Notes under the pieces: model-generated
What the model was told of the DNA's origin: nothing
Databases searched by the model: none
The model's input: only the letters and a program-made list of their open reading frames with translations
In this document: piece by piece, positions 5,254-13,045 of the stretch
How positions within the stretch are numbered: the stretch's first letter is position 1
Layout: every line of letters begins with the position of its first letter
Assembly: GCF_014647475.1 (NCBI RefSeq)
Contig: NZ_BMPG01000001.1
Location: forward strand, 310,001 to 374,000
DNA length: 64,000 nucleotides
Direction: 5' to 3'
Origin: Halocalculus aciditolerans
GTDB taxonomy: Archaea; Halobacteriota; Halobacteria; Halobacteriales; Halobacteriaceae
Position numbers and translations under genes: made by a program

Positions 5254-5328
5254 CCGCGACGCCGAAGCCGGCGTTCGCCGCTCGATTCGTGCCAAGCTTC
5301 TAATACCCGGACCGGACCAGCAGTGGCT

Positions 5329-6057
5329 ATGCCTCGAACTGCCGCGGTCGTCGGGACGGCGGGCGGCGTCGGTGCGACGCGACTCGCCGTCGAGTCCGCC
5401 GCCTCGCTCGCCGCCGCCGGCCGCGACGCCGCCGTCGTCGACGTCGCGTTCGCCACGCAGGGTCTCGCGCGCCACGTCGACGGCCGCATCGACGCCGACA
5501 CCGCCGCCCTCCTCGCTGACTCCGCTCGCCCGGCCGCGGACGCCGCACACGAACTCGACATCGACACGCCCGGGTCGGTGACGCTCTACCCGACGTACGC
5601 GCCGTTCACGACGCTCGCGTCCGCGAGCGCGCCGAACGCCGCCGCGACGCTCGGCGACCGACTCGACGAACTCGACGCCGACCACGTGCTCGTCGACACG
5701 CCGCCCGTCCTCGCCAACCCCGCCATCGCCAGCGTCGACGCCGCCGACGCCGTCGCGCTCGTCGCACCCGGCGGCGAACGCGGCGCCGACGCCGTCGCGC
5801 GCACCCGCGGCCGCCTCGCCGACGTCGACGCCAGCGCCGACCTCCTCGTCGCCAACCGCGCGCCCGACACGCCGCTCGACGCCGACGTCGCGATCCCGAC
5901 CGCCGACGCCGCCGATACCGAACGGTTCGCCTACGAGACGCCGCGCGCTCCCTTCTCCCTCGCCGTCGGCGAACTCGCCGAAGCGCTCTTCGACGTCGAC
6001 CTCGCGCTCCCCGACGAGCCCGGACTCGTCGACCGCGCGAAAACCGCGCTCAAGTAG
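5329..6057 (+). CDS. ParA/MinD-like protein with degenerate P-loop
   Basis: A 242-residue protein with the fold signature of the MinD/ParA family: a glycine-rich loop GTAGGVGATRLAV near the N-terminus, a DAAVVDV strand, a VLVDTPPVL Walker B-like strand and VALVAPGG. The loop lacks both lysines of the deviant Walker A motif (KGGxGKT); Ala and Arg stand in their place. CpaE-type proteins also carry GGxGAT loops, so this may be a non-hydrolysing or weakly hydrolysing relative. The ATG at 5329 is preferred over a GTG two codons earlier. Its stop abuts the stop of the convergent gene at 6058. Cellular role unknown; positioning of a structure is one possibility. Confidence 0.65.
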   Translation: MPRTAAVVGTAGGVGATRLAVESAASLAAAGRDAAVVDVAFATQGLARHVDGRIDADTAALLADSARPAADAAHELDIDTPGSVTLYPTYAPFTTLASASAPNAAATLGDRLDELDADHVLVDTPPVLANPAIASVDAADAVALVAPGGERGADAVARTRGRLADVDASADLLVANRAPDTPLDADVAIPTADAADTERFAYETPRAPFSLAVGELAEALFDVDLALPDEPGLVDRAKTALK

Positions 6058-6722: not shown

Positions 6723-7577
6723 ATGAGTCAGGCACGAACCTGTCCCGAATGCGACGGCCCCGTTCGCACCGACAGCACCGAAACCGTCTGCACGCAGTGC
6801 GGGCTCGTCGTCGCCGAAGACGCCATCGACCGCGGCCCCGAATGGCGGAGCTTCCAGGACGGCCCGAACCGCGAACGCACCGGCGCGCCGCTCACGCGCA
6901 GCCGCCACGACCGCGGCCTCAGCACCGAAATCGGCCGTCAGACCCGAGTGAAAGGTCGGAAGCGGCGGCGGCTCGCCCGGATGCGCCGCGAACACAACCG
7001 CGCGCGCATCGCCACCAAACAGGACCGCAACACCGTCTACGCGTTCACCGAAATCCGCCGCGTCGTCTCACAGCTCTCACTCCCCTACGACGTCCGCGAC
7101 CAGGCCTGCGCGCTCTACGACTCCGCGCGGAACGAAGACCTCCTCCGCGGCCGCTCGCTCGAAGGGTTCGCGGCCGCCGCGGTCTACGCCGTCTGCCGCC
7201 AGCGCGGCGTCGCGCGGACCGTCGACGAAGTGCTCGACGTCGCGCGCGCCGACCGCAGGGAGTTCCGCGCCGCCTACGACGCGATGAACCGAGAACTCGG
7301 CCTGCCGACCGGCCCCATCGACCCCCGCGACTACCTCCCGCGGTTCGCCAGCGAACTCGGCCTCGACGCCGCCGTCGAACGCCACGCTCGCCGCCTCCTC
7401 TTGGACTTAGAGGCGGACACGAACCTCGCGGGTCGGAACCCCGGTGGCGTCGCCGCCGCCTGCCTATACACCGCATCTCGCGATACGGAATCACCGGTGA
7501 CGCAGGCCGACGCCGCGGCCGCCGCCGGCGTCACCCCCGTCACCCTCCGCGCCACCTACGCCGACTTACAGGACTGA
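6723..7577 (+). CDS. tfb: Transcription initiation factor B (TFB)
   Basis: A 284-residue archaeal TFIIB homologue. It has the N-terminal zinc ribbon (CPEC ... CTQC), the B-reader region EWRSF followed by GAPLTRSRHDRGLSTEIG, and two cyclin-like repeats, including the second-repeat segment NPGGVAAACLYTA. It recruits RNA polymerase to TBP-bound TATA/BRE promoters. Haloarchaea carry several TFB paralogues with different promoter preferences; which one this is cannot be told. It is shorter than the usual length of about 320. The 3' end overlaps the convergent MinD-like gene by 22 bases. Upstream in-frame codons back to 6591 are ignored because the TATA box at 6688 would lie inside them. Confidence 0.93.
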   Translation: MSQARTCPECDGPVRTDSTETVCTQCGLVVAEDAIDRGPEWRSFQDGPNRERTGAPLTRSRHDRGLSTEIGRQTRVKGRKRRRLARMRREHNRARIATKQDRNTVYAFTEIRRVVSQLSLPYDVRDQACALYDSARNEDLLRGRSLEGFAAAAVYAVCRQRGVARTVDEVLDVARADRREFRAAYDAMNRELGLPTGPIDPRDYLPRFASELGLDAAVERHARRLLLDLEADTNLAGRNPGGVAAACLYTASRDTESPVTQADAAAAAGVTPVTLRATYADLQD

Positions 7578-8218
7578 ACGACCCGCCCGAGCTCCCGCAC
7601 CGCTTCTACCGCCGCGGTTCCCGCCTCGACCGTTCGAGCCGGCCGTCCGTCTCGCACCGCCGCGGCGAGCGCCCGCGACTCCGGCAGCGCCACCGCTCGC
7701 CCGCCGAGCGCGCGCTCGACCGGTTCGAGCGCCACACCGTCACTCCGGTTGAGCGCGACCGCCGCCACGCCCGCGCCGAACCGGACGGCGAGTTCGCGTG
7801 CCCGGACGCCGTCCGCGACCGCCGGCACGCCGGGGAGCGTGACGAGCACGCAGGCGTCAGCCGCCGCGAGCGGTACGCCGACGTCGGCCTTCAACCCCGC
7901 CGCACAGTCCACGACCACGTCGCCGTGCGTCGCCGCCAGGTCGCCGAGCACGCCACCGAGCGCCCGCGGGTCGGCCGCCCGCGCCCCGGCGAGCGACCGC
8001 CCGCAGGGGAGCACGAGCACCTCGCCGAGTCGCTGCACCGCCTCGAAGGGCGCGGCGCGCCCCGCCAGCACGTCGTGGAGGTCCGGGCCGCTCCCTACCG
8101 GGAGGTCGGCCATCGCGAGGTCGCCGTCGACCAGCACCGCGTCGAGCTCCGCCGCGAGGTTGAGCGCGACCGTTGACTTCCCGACGCCGCCCTTGCCGCC
8201 CGTGACTGCCAGAATCAC
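7556..8218 (-). CDS. MinD/ParA-type ATPase, last gene of operon
   Basis: A 220-residue P-loop ATPase starting (GTG) MILAVTGGKGGVGKSTVALN. The deviant Walker A KGGVGKST with both lysines is intact, and VVVDCAAGL and VLVTLPG form the later conserved strands. No C-terminal amphipathic membrane helix is obvious. The GTG start overlaps the stop of the upstream gene in GTGA, implying translational coupling. As I recall, Haloferax MinD2, which affects cell shape and motility and placement of polar structures, is also coupled to a haloarchaea-specific gene just upstream; orthology is inferred from this arrangement and not proven. Confidence 0.8.
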   Translation of the reverse strand: MILAVTGGKGGVGKSTVALNLAAELDAVLVDGDLAMADLPVGSGPDLHDVLAGRAAPFEAVQRLGEVLVLPCGRSLAGARAADPRALGGVLGDLAATHGDVVVDCAAGLKADVGVPLAAADACVLVTLPGVPAVADGVRARELAVRFGAGVAAVALNRSDGVALEPVERALGGRAVALPESRALAAAVRDGRPARTVEAGTAAVEAVRELGRVVQSCKSA

Positions 8219-8712
8219 GACTCGCCCTCCGCAGTCGCCCCGCGGAGCGCGGCCCTCGCGCGCGCCGCGACCCGCCGCAGCGCCTCCCGGTCGGCCGGCT
8301 CCGCCTGCGCTGTCTCGACGCGCGTCGCCGCCGCGTCCAGCCACGAATCCACGGCCTCCGGGACGACTCGCGGCGTCGGCACGGCGTCGCGCGGCGGCCG
8401 CGGGTCACCCAGCGCAGCCACCGGCTGTTCGTCCTCGCGCTCGCCCCCGGCCGGCTCCGTCCACGCCACTTCGACGGGGTTCGCCGCGCGCGCCGGTGTC
8501 GCGAACCCGAGCACCAGCGTCTCCTCGCGGCCGACGACGCCCTCGAAGCCATCGTCGTCCCAGCCGGCGCGCGGCACCCCGTGTCGCCGCGGCGGCCACA
8601 CCGGCTCCACGCCGGCCGCGACCCGCACCCGCCGTCGCTCCCCCTCGTTCGTCACCGTCGCGCTCACGAACGTCACGCCGCCGACCCGCTGCGTCCACGT
8701 CTCTACGTCCAT
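8215..8712 (-). CDS. Haloarchaea-specific protein coupled to the MinD-like ATPase
   Basis: A 165-residue protein starting MDVETWTQRVGGVTFVSATV. The N-terminal half looks like a beta-rich domain (VRVAAGVEPVW, ETLVLGF), resembling immunoglobulin-like folds, and the C-terminal half is an Ala/Arg-rich helix. No catalytic motif was seen. Its stop overlaps the start of the MinD-like gene by four bases, so the two products are probably made together and may interact. It lies 50 bases after the upstream coiled-coil gene in the same operon. Confidence 0.65.
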   Translation of the reverse strand: MDVETWTQRVGGVTFVSATVTNEGERRRVRVAAGVEPVWPPRRHGVPRAGWDDDGFEGVVGREETLVLGFATPARAANPVEVAWTEPAGGEREDEQPVAALGDPRPPRDAVPTPRVVPEAVDSWLDAAATRVETAQAEPADREALRRVAARARAALRGATAEGES

Positions 8713-11017: not shown

Positions 11018-12049
11018 TCAGTCTTCGGCTTCGACTTCTTCGGCGTCGGCGTCGCCGTCGCCGCCGGTGTCGCCTTCTTCGGAGCGGGCGGCGACGAGCG
11101 CACCGCGGGCGACGCTGTACATGGGTTCGCGGGCGCGGCGGACGCCGCTGATGTTGAAGGGGATGTCGGCTTCGTTGAAGCGTTCGCGGAAGAGTTTCTC
11201 GAAGCCGTCGGGGCTGGAGGTGCCGCCGGTAACGACGACGGGGACGTCGAGGCCTTCTTCGACGTCTTCGTCGTCGACTTCGCGCGCGATGTTCTCGATG
11301 ACGTAGTCGAGGAGGTTGTCGTAGTAGATGGAGAGCGCGCCTTCGATGCCGCCGACGTCGCTCTCGAAGTTGAGGGTGAAGTCGTCTTCCTTCGTGGAGG
11401 TGACCTTATCGACGGGGGTGCCGGTCGCGGTCGCGGCCTGCTCGTCGATCCAGTCGCCGCCGCGGGCGATGGAGAACGTCATGACGGGAACGGCGTAGTA
11501 GGCGAGGCAGACGTTCGTCATGCCCGCGCCGAAGGAGATGCCGAGGCCCGTGAAGTCCTGGTTCGCGAGCTCGGAGTAGATGACGCTCATCCCCTCGTTG
11601 ATTGGTTCGGGCTCGTAGCCCATCTGGCCGAGGATGGATTCGAGGGTCTTCTGGTGGTAGAGCGTCGTCGCGTCGGAGTCCATCGGGTCGGCGGGCGTGG
11701 AGAAGAAGAGCGGTTCGCCCTCGTGCGTGGGTTCGCCGACGACCTGCTCGATGATGAGTTTGATCATCGGAATCGCGGACTTCTCGTCCGCGGAGATGAT
11801 GCCGTGCTTCATCGGGCGGCGGGTCTCGCGGTTGAAGATGTTCGCGAAGTTCAGCGCGTCGTCGCCGACGACGTAGACCTTATCCCCCTTCTTGATGTGG
11901 AGGACGTCGCTGCGGGAGAGCATCTGCTCCGCCATGTCGCTGTAGTCGAGTTCGACGAAGGAGTTTCGCTGCTGGACGAAGACGGTGTCGCCGCCTTCCT
12001 GTCGGGCAGAGATGATGTTCATCGTCCCGACGTCGAGTCCTTTGGCCAT
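11018..12049 (-). CDS. Salactin-like actin homologue
   Basis: A 343-residue actin-fold protein starting [20 protein letters not shown]. The phosphate-1 loop (DVGTMNI), phosphate-2 loop ([10 protein letters not shown], about residue 170) and adenosine motif ([17 protein letters not shown], about residue 275) are all visible, in the order of MreB/actin/Hsp70 ATPases. The sequence agrees with what I remember of salactin, the dynamically unstable actin of Halobacterium salinarum linked to DNA partitioning. An acidic low-complexity tail follows the core. A clear TATA element (12071-12080) gives it its own promoter, while a membrane-protein gene lies 63 bases upstream in the same direction. Confidence 0.85.
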
Positions 12050-12070
12050 ACGCGTACCTTCTTCCGGCAG

Positions 12071-12080
12071 TTAATAAATC
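12071..12080 (-). promoter_or_regulatory. TATA box of the salactin-like gene
   Basis: On the minus strand this reads GATTTATTAA, centred about 26 bases before the ATG at 12049. It lies in the 63-base gap after the upstream membrane-protein gene, so the actin can be transcribed on its own as a nearly leaderless message. Confidence 0.7.
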
Positions 12081-12112
12081 TGCCCCAGGCTTCGATGCAC
12101 GCTCGAATCCCG

Positions 12113-13045
12113 TCAGGAGAACTTCCGTTTCAGCTTCCCGACGAGGCCTTCTTCGGCGGCTTCCTTCTCCTGTTCGGCCTGCTGGCGCTGCCGGAGCTGC
12201 TTCAGTTTGTCCGCCTGGTCGTCGGTGGTGTCCTCGCTCCGCTCTTCTTTCTGCTGGCCGCCGCGGAAGGAGTTGAGCGAGTTCACGGCGTCGTCGACGC
12301 CGCCGCCGCCCTCGCGGCGCTCGTTCGCGCCGACGTCGTCGAAGTTCGCGCGGTCGATGCCGGCTTCGCCCTCGTCCGTCTTGACTTTCAAGCGCTTCGT
12401 GTTCTCCTTCTTGACGCCGCCCCAGGAGAGGTCGGCGTCCCGCATCGCTTCCTCGATGTCGCGTTCGACGTCCGCGGAGGAAACGGATTCGGTGGCGCTC
12501 GCCGCGCCGCCGTCGCCGTCCGAACGCTCGGCGGACGACGCGCTCGCGCTTCCGTCGGACGCGTTCTGCCGTTCGATGTAGTCGGTGACGAGCGAGGAGC
12601 CGATTGCGGCCACCATGACGGCGAGCCCGACGGCGTACGTGCTCACGCCGAGCACGGACTCGTCGCGGCCGGCGACGTTCCAGTGGTAGGGGTACGCCCA
12701 GGCGAAGATGCCGACGGCGACGAGGGTGACGACGCCGCCGGCGGCGGCCGCGTACTGCGTCTTCCGGCCGACCGGCAGGAGGACGGGGATGCTCATGAAG
12801 AACGCGGGCGCGCCGACGCCGACGAGCGCGATGGCGACCTCGCGGAACTGGTAGAAGACGAGGGTGGTGTCCGCGTACGTGTTCCCGACGAGGAAGACGA
12901 GCAGTCCGAGCGCGCCGAGGGCGATGCCGCCGAAGAACAGGCCGAATCCGAGGTAGACGTCGCGGAGCCGGTCGGGCTCCCCGACGTACCGCCGGTAGAG
13001 CGCGACGAGGCGTTCGCCCACCGCGCTCTCGACACTCTGACTCAT
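12113..13045 (-). CDS. Four-helix membrane protein upstream of salactin
   Basis: A 310-residue protein. Four hydrophobic helices lie at about residues 30-54, 66-92, 95-118 and 131-156. The remaining 150 residues are polar and presumably cytoplasmic: an Ser/Ala/Asp-rich stretch, a conserved-looking WGGVKKENTKRLKVKTDEGE block, and a Gln/Glu/Lys-rich likely coiled coil ending in a basic tail (GKLKRKFS). It precedes the actin gene by 63 bases in the same direction. Membrane-anchored adaptors with cytoplasmic coiled coils are common partners of cytoskeletal filaments, so it is a candidate anchor for the actin. No named family was recognised. Confidence 0.7.
   Translation of the reverse strand: MSQSVESAVGERLVALYRRYVGEPDRLRDVYLGFGLFFGGIALGALGLLVFLVGNTYADTTLVFYQFREVAIALVGVGAPAFFMSIPVLLPVGRKTQYAAAAGGVVTLVAVGIFAWAYPYHWNVAGRDESVLGVSTYAVGLAVMVAAIGSSLVTDYIERQNASDGSASASSAERSDGDGGAASATESVSSADVERDIEEAMRDADLSWGGVKKENTKRLKVKTDEGEAGIDRANFDDVGANERREGGGGVDDAVNSLNSFRGGQQKEERSEDTTDDQADKLKQLRQRQQAEQEKEAAEEGLVGKLKRKFS

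Follow-up and report, generated by a model that had tools for sequence, protein, structure and literature searches.

Volactin and a co-conserved four-helix membrane protein in archaea: a candidate anchor for actin filament tips

Very few archaeal actins have been studied in living cells, and volactin (VolA, HVO_2015 in Haloferax volcanii; Pfam PF25216) is among them. The published account describes filaments in H. volcanii that polymerise and depolymerise dynamically, a deletion of volactin that was only partial, and a promotion of the change to disk shape; this is the only species for which filament dynamics in living cells and an effect on shape have been shown (PMC10869688). According to the same account, the filament tips attach to the membrane with no known anchor, volactin-binding factors have been proposed, and the filaments depolymerise abruptly, with a turnover that appears regulated; a partner gene is not named, and the text found contains no discussion of the gene upstream of volactin (PMC10869688). 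Volactin has also been implicated in mechanical development (PMC7617734). It reaches from membrane to membrane and is reported to be near-essential. Salactin (VNG0153C of Halobacterium salinarum; NCBIfam NF053533) is likewise a haloarchaeal, dynamically unstable actin homolog, whose synteny within its own genus is poor (PMC10746226).

The window analysed here is a stretch of 64,000 nucleotides from Halocalculus aciditolerans, the genome of which (3.38 Mb, 27 contigs) contains one volactin gene and two genes of the DUF7139 type, one adjoining volactin and the other located elsewhere. The open reading frames of the window bear out the two genes of the initial annotation, including their coordinates and the position of the membrane protein gene directly upstream of the actin. 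The genes are co-oriented and separated by 63 bp, with the DUF7139 gene first. The features referred to below are as follows.

11018..12049, minus strand: volA, encoding volactin, an actin-family filament protein of 343 aa (match to Pfam Volactin PF25216)
12113..13045, minus strand: DUF7139 membrane protein of the volactin-linked type, 310 aa, the proposed membrane partner of volactin (PF23600 match of 149 bits, co-occurrence and synteny)
12072..12078, minus strand: TATA-like element TTTATTA, which precedes the volA start codon by 29 bases (own locus and a survey of 80 loci)
12530..12967, minus strand: four-transmembrane domain, residues 27-172, common to the CdpA-like paralog (AlphaFold2 helices and PF23600)
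12371..12478, minus strand: tail motif 1, residues 190-225, an acidic helix and an xSWGGVxKxxTxRL block (alignment of 34 homologs)
12257..12301, minus strand: tail motif 2, residues 249-263, GVDxxVxxLxxLrGG, first repeat copy (homolog alignment)
12179..12226, minus strand: tail motif 3, residues 274-289, xDDQxxxLxxLR, second repeat copy (homolog alignment)
12119..12151, minus strand: C-terminal short helix of the GLVGKLKRKF type, hydrophobic moment ~0.53 (AlphaFold2 model; similar ends in most homologs)

The actin had been annotated as salactin-like, an identity that was rejected on both the model score and the distribution among genomes. The protein matched the Volactin model PF25216 with 451 bits (cut-off 35; E 2.8e-135) from end to end, with residues 1-321 covering all 321 model positions, and is a full-length member of that family. 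Against the salactin model NF053533 it scored 14.6 bits, short of the equivalog cut-off of 400, and no protein of its own genome exceeded that cut-off. Models of MreB, MamK, FtsA and actin were matched weakly. The protein is 75-84% identical to 26 homologs, and the closest named volactins are those of Halarchaeum, with 87% identity. The alignment of these 27 sequences contains the invariant positions D6-V-G8-T9-M-N11, G168-L-G170..G174-A-G176 and T274-G-G-T277, and the actin-type nucleotide-binding motifs are present as the DVGTMN, [10 protein letters not shown] and TGGTxxPxGF blocks, as assigned by eye. An AlphaFold2 model of volactin (mean pLDDT of 40) was set aside as too poor. Among the 243 genomes of the order, salactin was over the cut-off in 80 and volactin in 120, with both present in 41; the two are separate actin systems, and the genome of the window has volactin only. 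As the actin is volactin and not salactin, the check on DNA partition suggested in the initial annotation concerns a different actin.

Of 80 volactin loci, 72 had a TATA-like element at -22 to -38, which in 71 of these lay at -29 to -31 relative to the volA start codon; none of the control windows had one. The volA gene is predicted from this element to have its own core promoter, and the haloarchaeal pair is thus not necessarily a single transcript. Two genes for ParA/MinD-like ATPases, at 5323-6057 (+) and 7556-8344 (-), lie less than 6 kb from volactin; the nucleotide motif of the former is apparently degenerate, as judged by eye.

The upstream protein matched DUF7139 (PF23600) with 149 bits (cut-off 30; E 9.7e-44) over residues 12-160. 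Its AlphaFold2 model, generated from a 34-row alignment (mean pLDDT of 74), comprised an N-terminal helix followed by four long hydrophobic helices (27-54, 62-89, 94-117 and 129-172) and a tail of 138 residues, consistent with the four membrane helices and long cytoplasmic tail read from the sequence at the outset. The tail contained helical pieces at 190-203, 250-262 and 274-309, the last of these a single 36-residue helix; the rest was of low confidence and mostly predicted to be disordered. Three motifs are conserved in the tails of 34 volactin-linked homologs: SWGGVEK.ET.RL, GVD..V.GL..L.GGE and DDQTAAL.ELRE. Within motif 1, a D and two G residues are invariant, with I, A, W, V and L nearly so. 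The likeness of motifs 2 and 3 exceeded the best score of 200 column shuffles, so they probably form an internal repeat. The tail had also been credited with a basic conserved block (206-225), a reading that we rejected because the charge of this segment, +3 here, ranges from -3 to +4 across the 34 homologs; the entire tail carries a net acidic charge, of -10 here and between -30 and -4 in the homologs. No relatives of the membrane protein with solved structures were found by sequence. By fold, the best match of the membrane domain to solved structures was to leukotriene C4 synthase-like four-helix bundles and was not significant (E 0.11), and the tail had no significant match. No enzymatic or known actin-regulator domain was detected in the tail, including by Pfam scan.

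Because the membrane domain is common to other paralogs, a profile of the tail only was built from the homolog alignment and searched, together with volactin over its cut-off, in 243 genomes of the order. Volactin and the tail were both found in 119 genomes and neither in 122, with volactin alone in one and the tail alone in one (Fisher p 2e-68, a value that ignores relatedness and is only indicative). Both discordant genomes carry remnants, leaving 119 with an intact pair and 124 in which intact volactin and the tail are both missing. In the volactin-only genome (G014), a deletion has destroyed both proteins: the ~43 N-terminal residues of the membrane protein now run in frame into the last third of volactin, a remnant located at L198:1384-1791. 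The match in the tail-only genome was a 33-column fragment of 21 bits. Ten genera contain both states, with exact tracking in eight; the other two contain the two remnants. The tail was absent from all 39 salactin-only genomes and present in 78 of the 79 salactin-free genomes with volactin. The initial annotation had proposed phylogenetic co-occurrence as a check on the partnership, and actin homologs without the membrane protein as evidence against it; the check gave the 119 joint occurrences and two remnants above, and no intact volactin without the membrane protein was found among the 243 genomes.

The membrane protein gene lies immediately upstream of volactin on the same strand in 104 of the 119 genomes, with a median gap of 110 bases between the matched stretches. 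Twelve of the 15 exceptions fall in a single genus, g11, the named loci of which suggest that it is Halorubrum. All 12 nevertheless retain both genes, at widely separated positions, and the two genomes of the genus without volactin also have no intact tail. This retention of unlinked genes tells a functional association apart from mere linkage. Among 80 named loci, the membrane protein gene was on the fetched stretch in 63 and upstream in 62 of these, and no other neighbour in the 80 loci was conserved like DUF7139. One apparent fusion of the two proteins (L122) was discarded, as the two share an open frame in which the tail is frameshifted. Across the order, the tail and volactin have been gained and lost together, and retained together where the genes moved apart.

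The pair extends beyond the haloarchaea. Of 120 genomes drawn from the phylum, 15 outside the order contained volactin, counted at >375 bits. In each of the 15, a DUF7139-like gene immediately preceded it on the same strand, often with a gap of a few bases or an overlap. Full-length matches (at least 278 bits) to the non-haloarchaeal partners were found in exactly these 15 and in no other genome outside the order. Seven belong to one family, in which methyl-coenzyme M reductase (MCR) was absent from the five members tested and dissimilatory sulfite reductase was present in 6/7 genomes; we infer that this family is Archaeoglobus-like. The tested members of the remaining two volactin-bearing families have MCR. 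The haloarchaeal and non-haloarchaeal profiles aligned colinearly from the membrane domain to the C-terminus (E 1.8e-21); the tails alone aligned with E 1.5e-4 and a probability of just 52%, and motif 1 is missing from most tails of the Archaeoglobus-like genomes. The two genes were already neighbours before the haloarchaea split from related archaeal classes. The presence of the pair in haloarchaea, Archaeoglobus-like archaea and methanogens means that volactin is not a haloarchaeal peculiarity. Weaker DUF7139-like membrane-domain matches were observed in four genomes of an MCR-bearing family without volactin (G305, G329, G262 and G325 of f19), where the domain sits in longer frames of 536-638 aa.

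Co-occurrence, synteny and remote conservation strongly support the candidate partnership with which the analysis began, and we regard the membrane protein as almost certainly an obligate partner of volactin. In the mechanism that we propose, volactin polymerises, and the cytoplasmic tail of the four-helix protein would work only with volactin. The membrane domain would be embedded in the cytoplasmic membrane so that its two ends face the cell interior, and the conserved tail, with its doubled short helical motif, would bind a volactin monomer or filament end, with the repeat possibly providing two volactin-binding sites. Such binding would anchor the filament tips to the membrane, and the membrane protein probably also influences where filaments start, stop or disassemble. 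That anchoring of the tips is the main job of the protein seems to us a reasonable expectation, held with much less assurance than the partnership itself. The overall reading, an old and conserved two-part module of volactin and a membrane protein with a volactin-specific tail that anchors filament tips, is one that we consider probable.

The main rival is that the membrane protein regulates volactin, by nucleating, capping or severing it at the membrane or by relaying a signal from the membrane or envelope such as tension, curvature or growth phase. The abrupt depolymerisation and apparently regulated turnover described for H. volcanii (PMC10869688), together with the implication of volactin in mechanical development (PMC7617734), would fit such a role, and the doubled helical motif would suit the binding of actin subunits; the tail, however, has no detected enzymatic or known actin-regulator domain, and we consider this explanation rather unlikely. 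Anchoring and regulation are not exclusive, and control of nucleation or disassembly may be combined with anchoring. As the membrane domain has no significant match to a solved structure, it is also conceivable that the protein may be a receptor, a channel or a lipid-handling protein. The link could alternatively be indirect, with both proteins serving the same programme of cell shape, such as envelope growth or a transporter-like function, and having no contact. In keeping with this, volA has a promoter of its own, but near one-to-one, tail-specific co-occurrence across several archaeal classes exceeds what is usual for a shared programme, and no other neighbour is comparably conserved, which makes an indirect link improbable. 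Adjacent genes can persist by descent and be lost in one deletion, as in G014, but a neutral relic of shared ancestry without a functional tie is scarcely credible, as it is already contradicted by the far-apart genes kept in 12/12 g11 genomes and by the persistence of the pair across deep divergence.

DUF7139 was found in 228 of the 243 genomes of the order, with a second type that is nearly universal and independent of volactin. These near-universal paralogs form a separate clade (support 100/100), with the window protein outside it. In the two sets compared, their similarity to the non-haloarchaeal proteins is confined to the membrane domain, and the volactin tail was not found in them. The Haloferax paralog ends in a four-cysteine finger (DUF7140), and such a finger is also seen in the sequence of the paralog of the window genome (L001); a Pfam scan found no DUF7140 in the window membrane protein. 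A CetZ gene and an FtsZ gene (ftsZ1) bracket the paralog in one Haloferax genome, where it is the sixth open reading frame from cetZ. If this cetZ is cetZ2, which we take to be HVO_0745, the paralog would be HVO_0739, presumably the protein named CdpA. HVO_0739, predicted to be a membrane protein, decreases along with FtsZ2 and SepF on CdrS repression, and its single-gene mRNA of ~1,052 bases (PMC8406309) fits the size of the Haloferax open reading frame. A review places CdpA among the division proteins, and the near-universal DUF7139 paralog is probably this protein.

A third DUF7139 type was observed in three genomes with Halorubrum volactin loci (L161, L162 and L163), in which a coiled-coil-like stretch and YegP/DUF1508-like repeats, as judged by eye, come after the membrane domain. 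To judge from this further tail, the membrane domain seems to act as a platform whose tails can be exchanged. A second volactin-domain protein was present in at least 28 genomes, in open frames of ~650-1360 aa (e.g., L188:3312-6863(+) and L191:1742-4342(-), and also L189, L190 and L192). These five proteins begin with a volactin domain, continue into a long acidic region in which coiled-coil-type matches are numerous, and end in a membrane helix. They look like membrane-tethered, coiled-coil actin paralogs; the first nucleotide loop of the L188 protein differs from that of volactin.

The actin itself, and membrane anchors of filaments as a functional class, are already known. Neither the partner with its tail nor the phylogenetic depth of the pair was described in the open-access journal literature searched, in which neither DUF7139 nor HVO_2016 gave any matches. 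The membrane protein is the best candidate yet for holding volactin filaments at the cell membrane, and its gene, a single neighbour that co-occurs with volactin almost one to one, offers a directly testable answer in H. volcanii.

In its proposed role, as a membrane protein whose cytoplasmic tail holds a filament, it resembles RodZ for MreB and SepF or FtsA for FtsZ. No sequence relation to these anchors was found, and they attach through one helix or an amphipathic helix, in contrast to the four membrane helices here. Salactin, although also a dynamically unstable haloarchaeal actin, belongs to a separate family with a separate distribution and has no link to this membrane protein. The CdpA-type protein HVO_0739 shares with the window protein an N-terminal four-helix membrane domain followed by a long cytoplasmic part, but carries the DUF7140 finger in place of the volactin tail, is near-universal and falls in its own clade. 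It is possible, if somewhat short of an even chance, that the volactin partner is the original form and that CdpA derives from it through a duplication and a swap of the cytoplasmic tail. If so, one four-helix membrane platform with different tails would serve both actin and tubulin-type cytoskeletons; a membrane domain in common with a protein encoded between tubulin-type genes in Haloferax suggests that the archaeal actin and tubulin systems may draw on one type of membrane platform.
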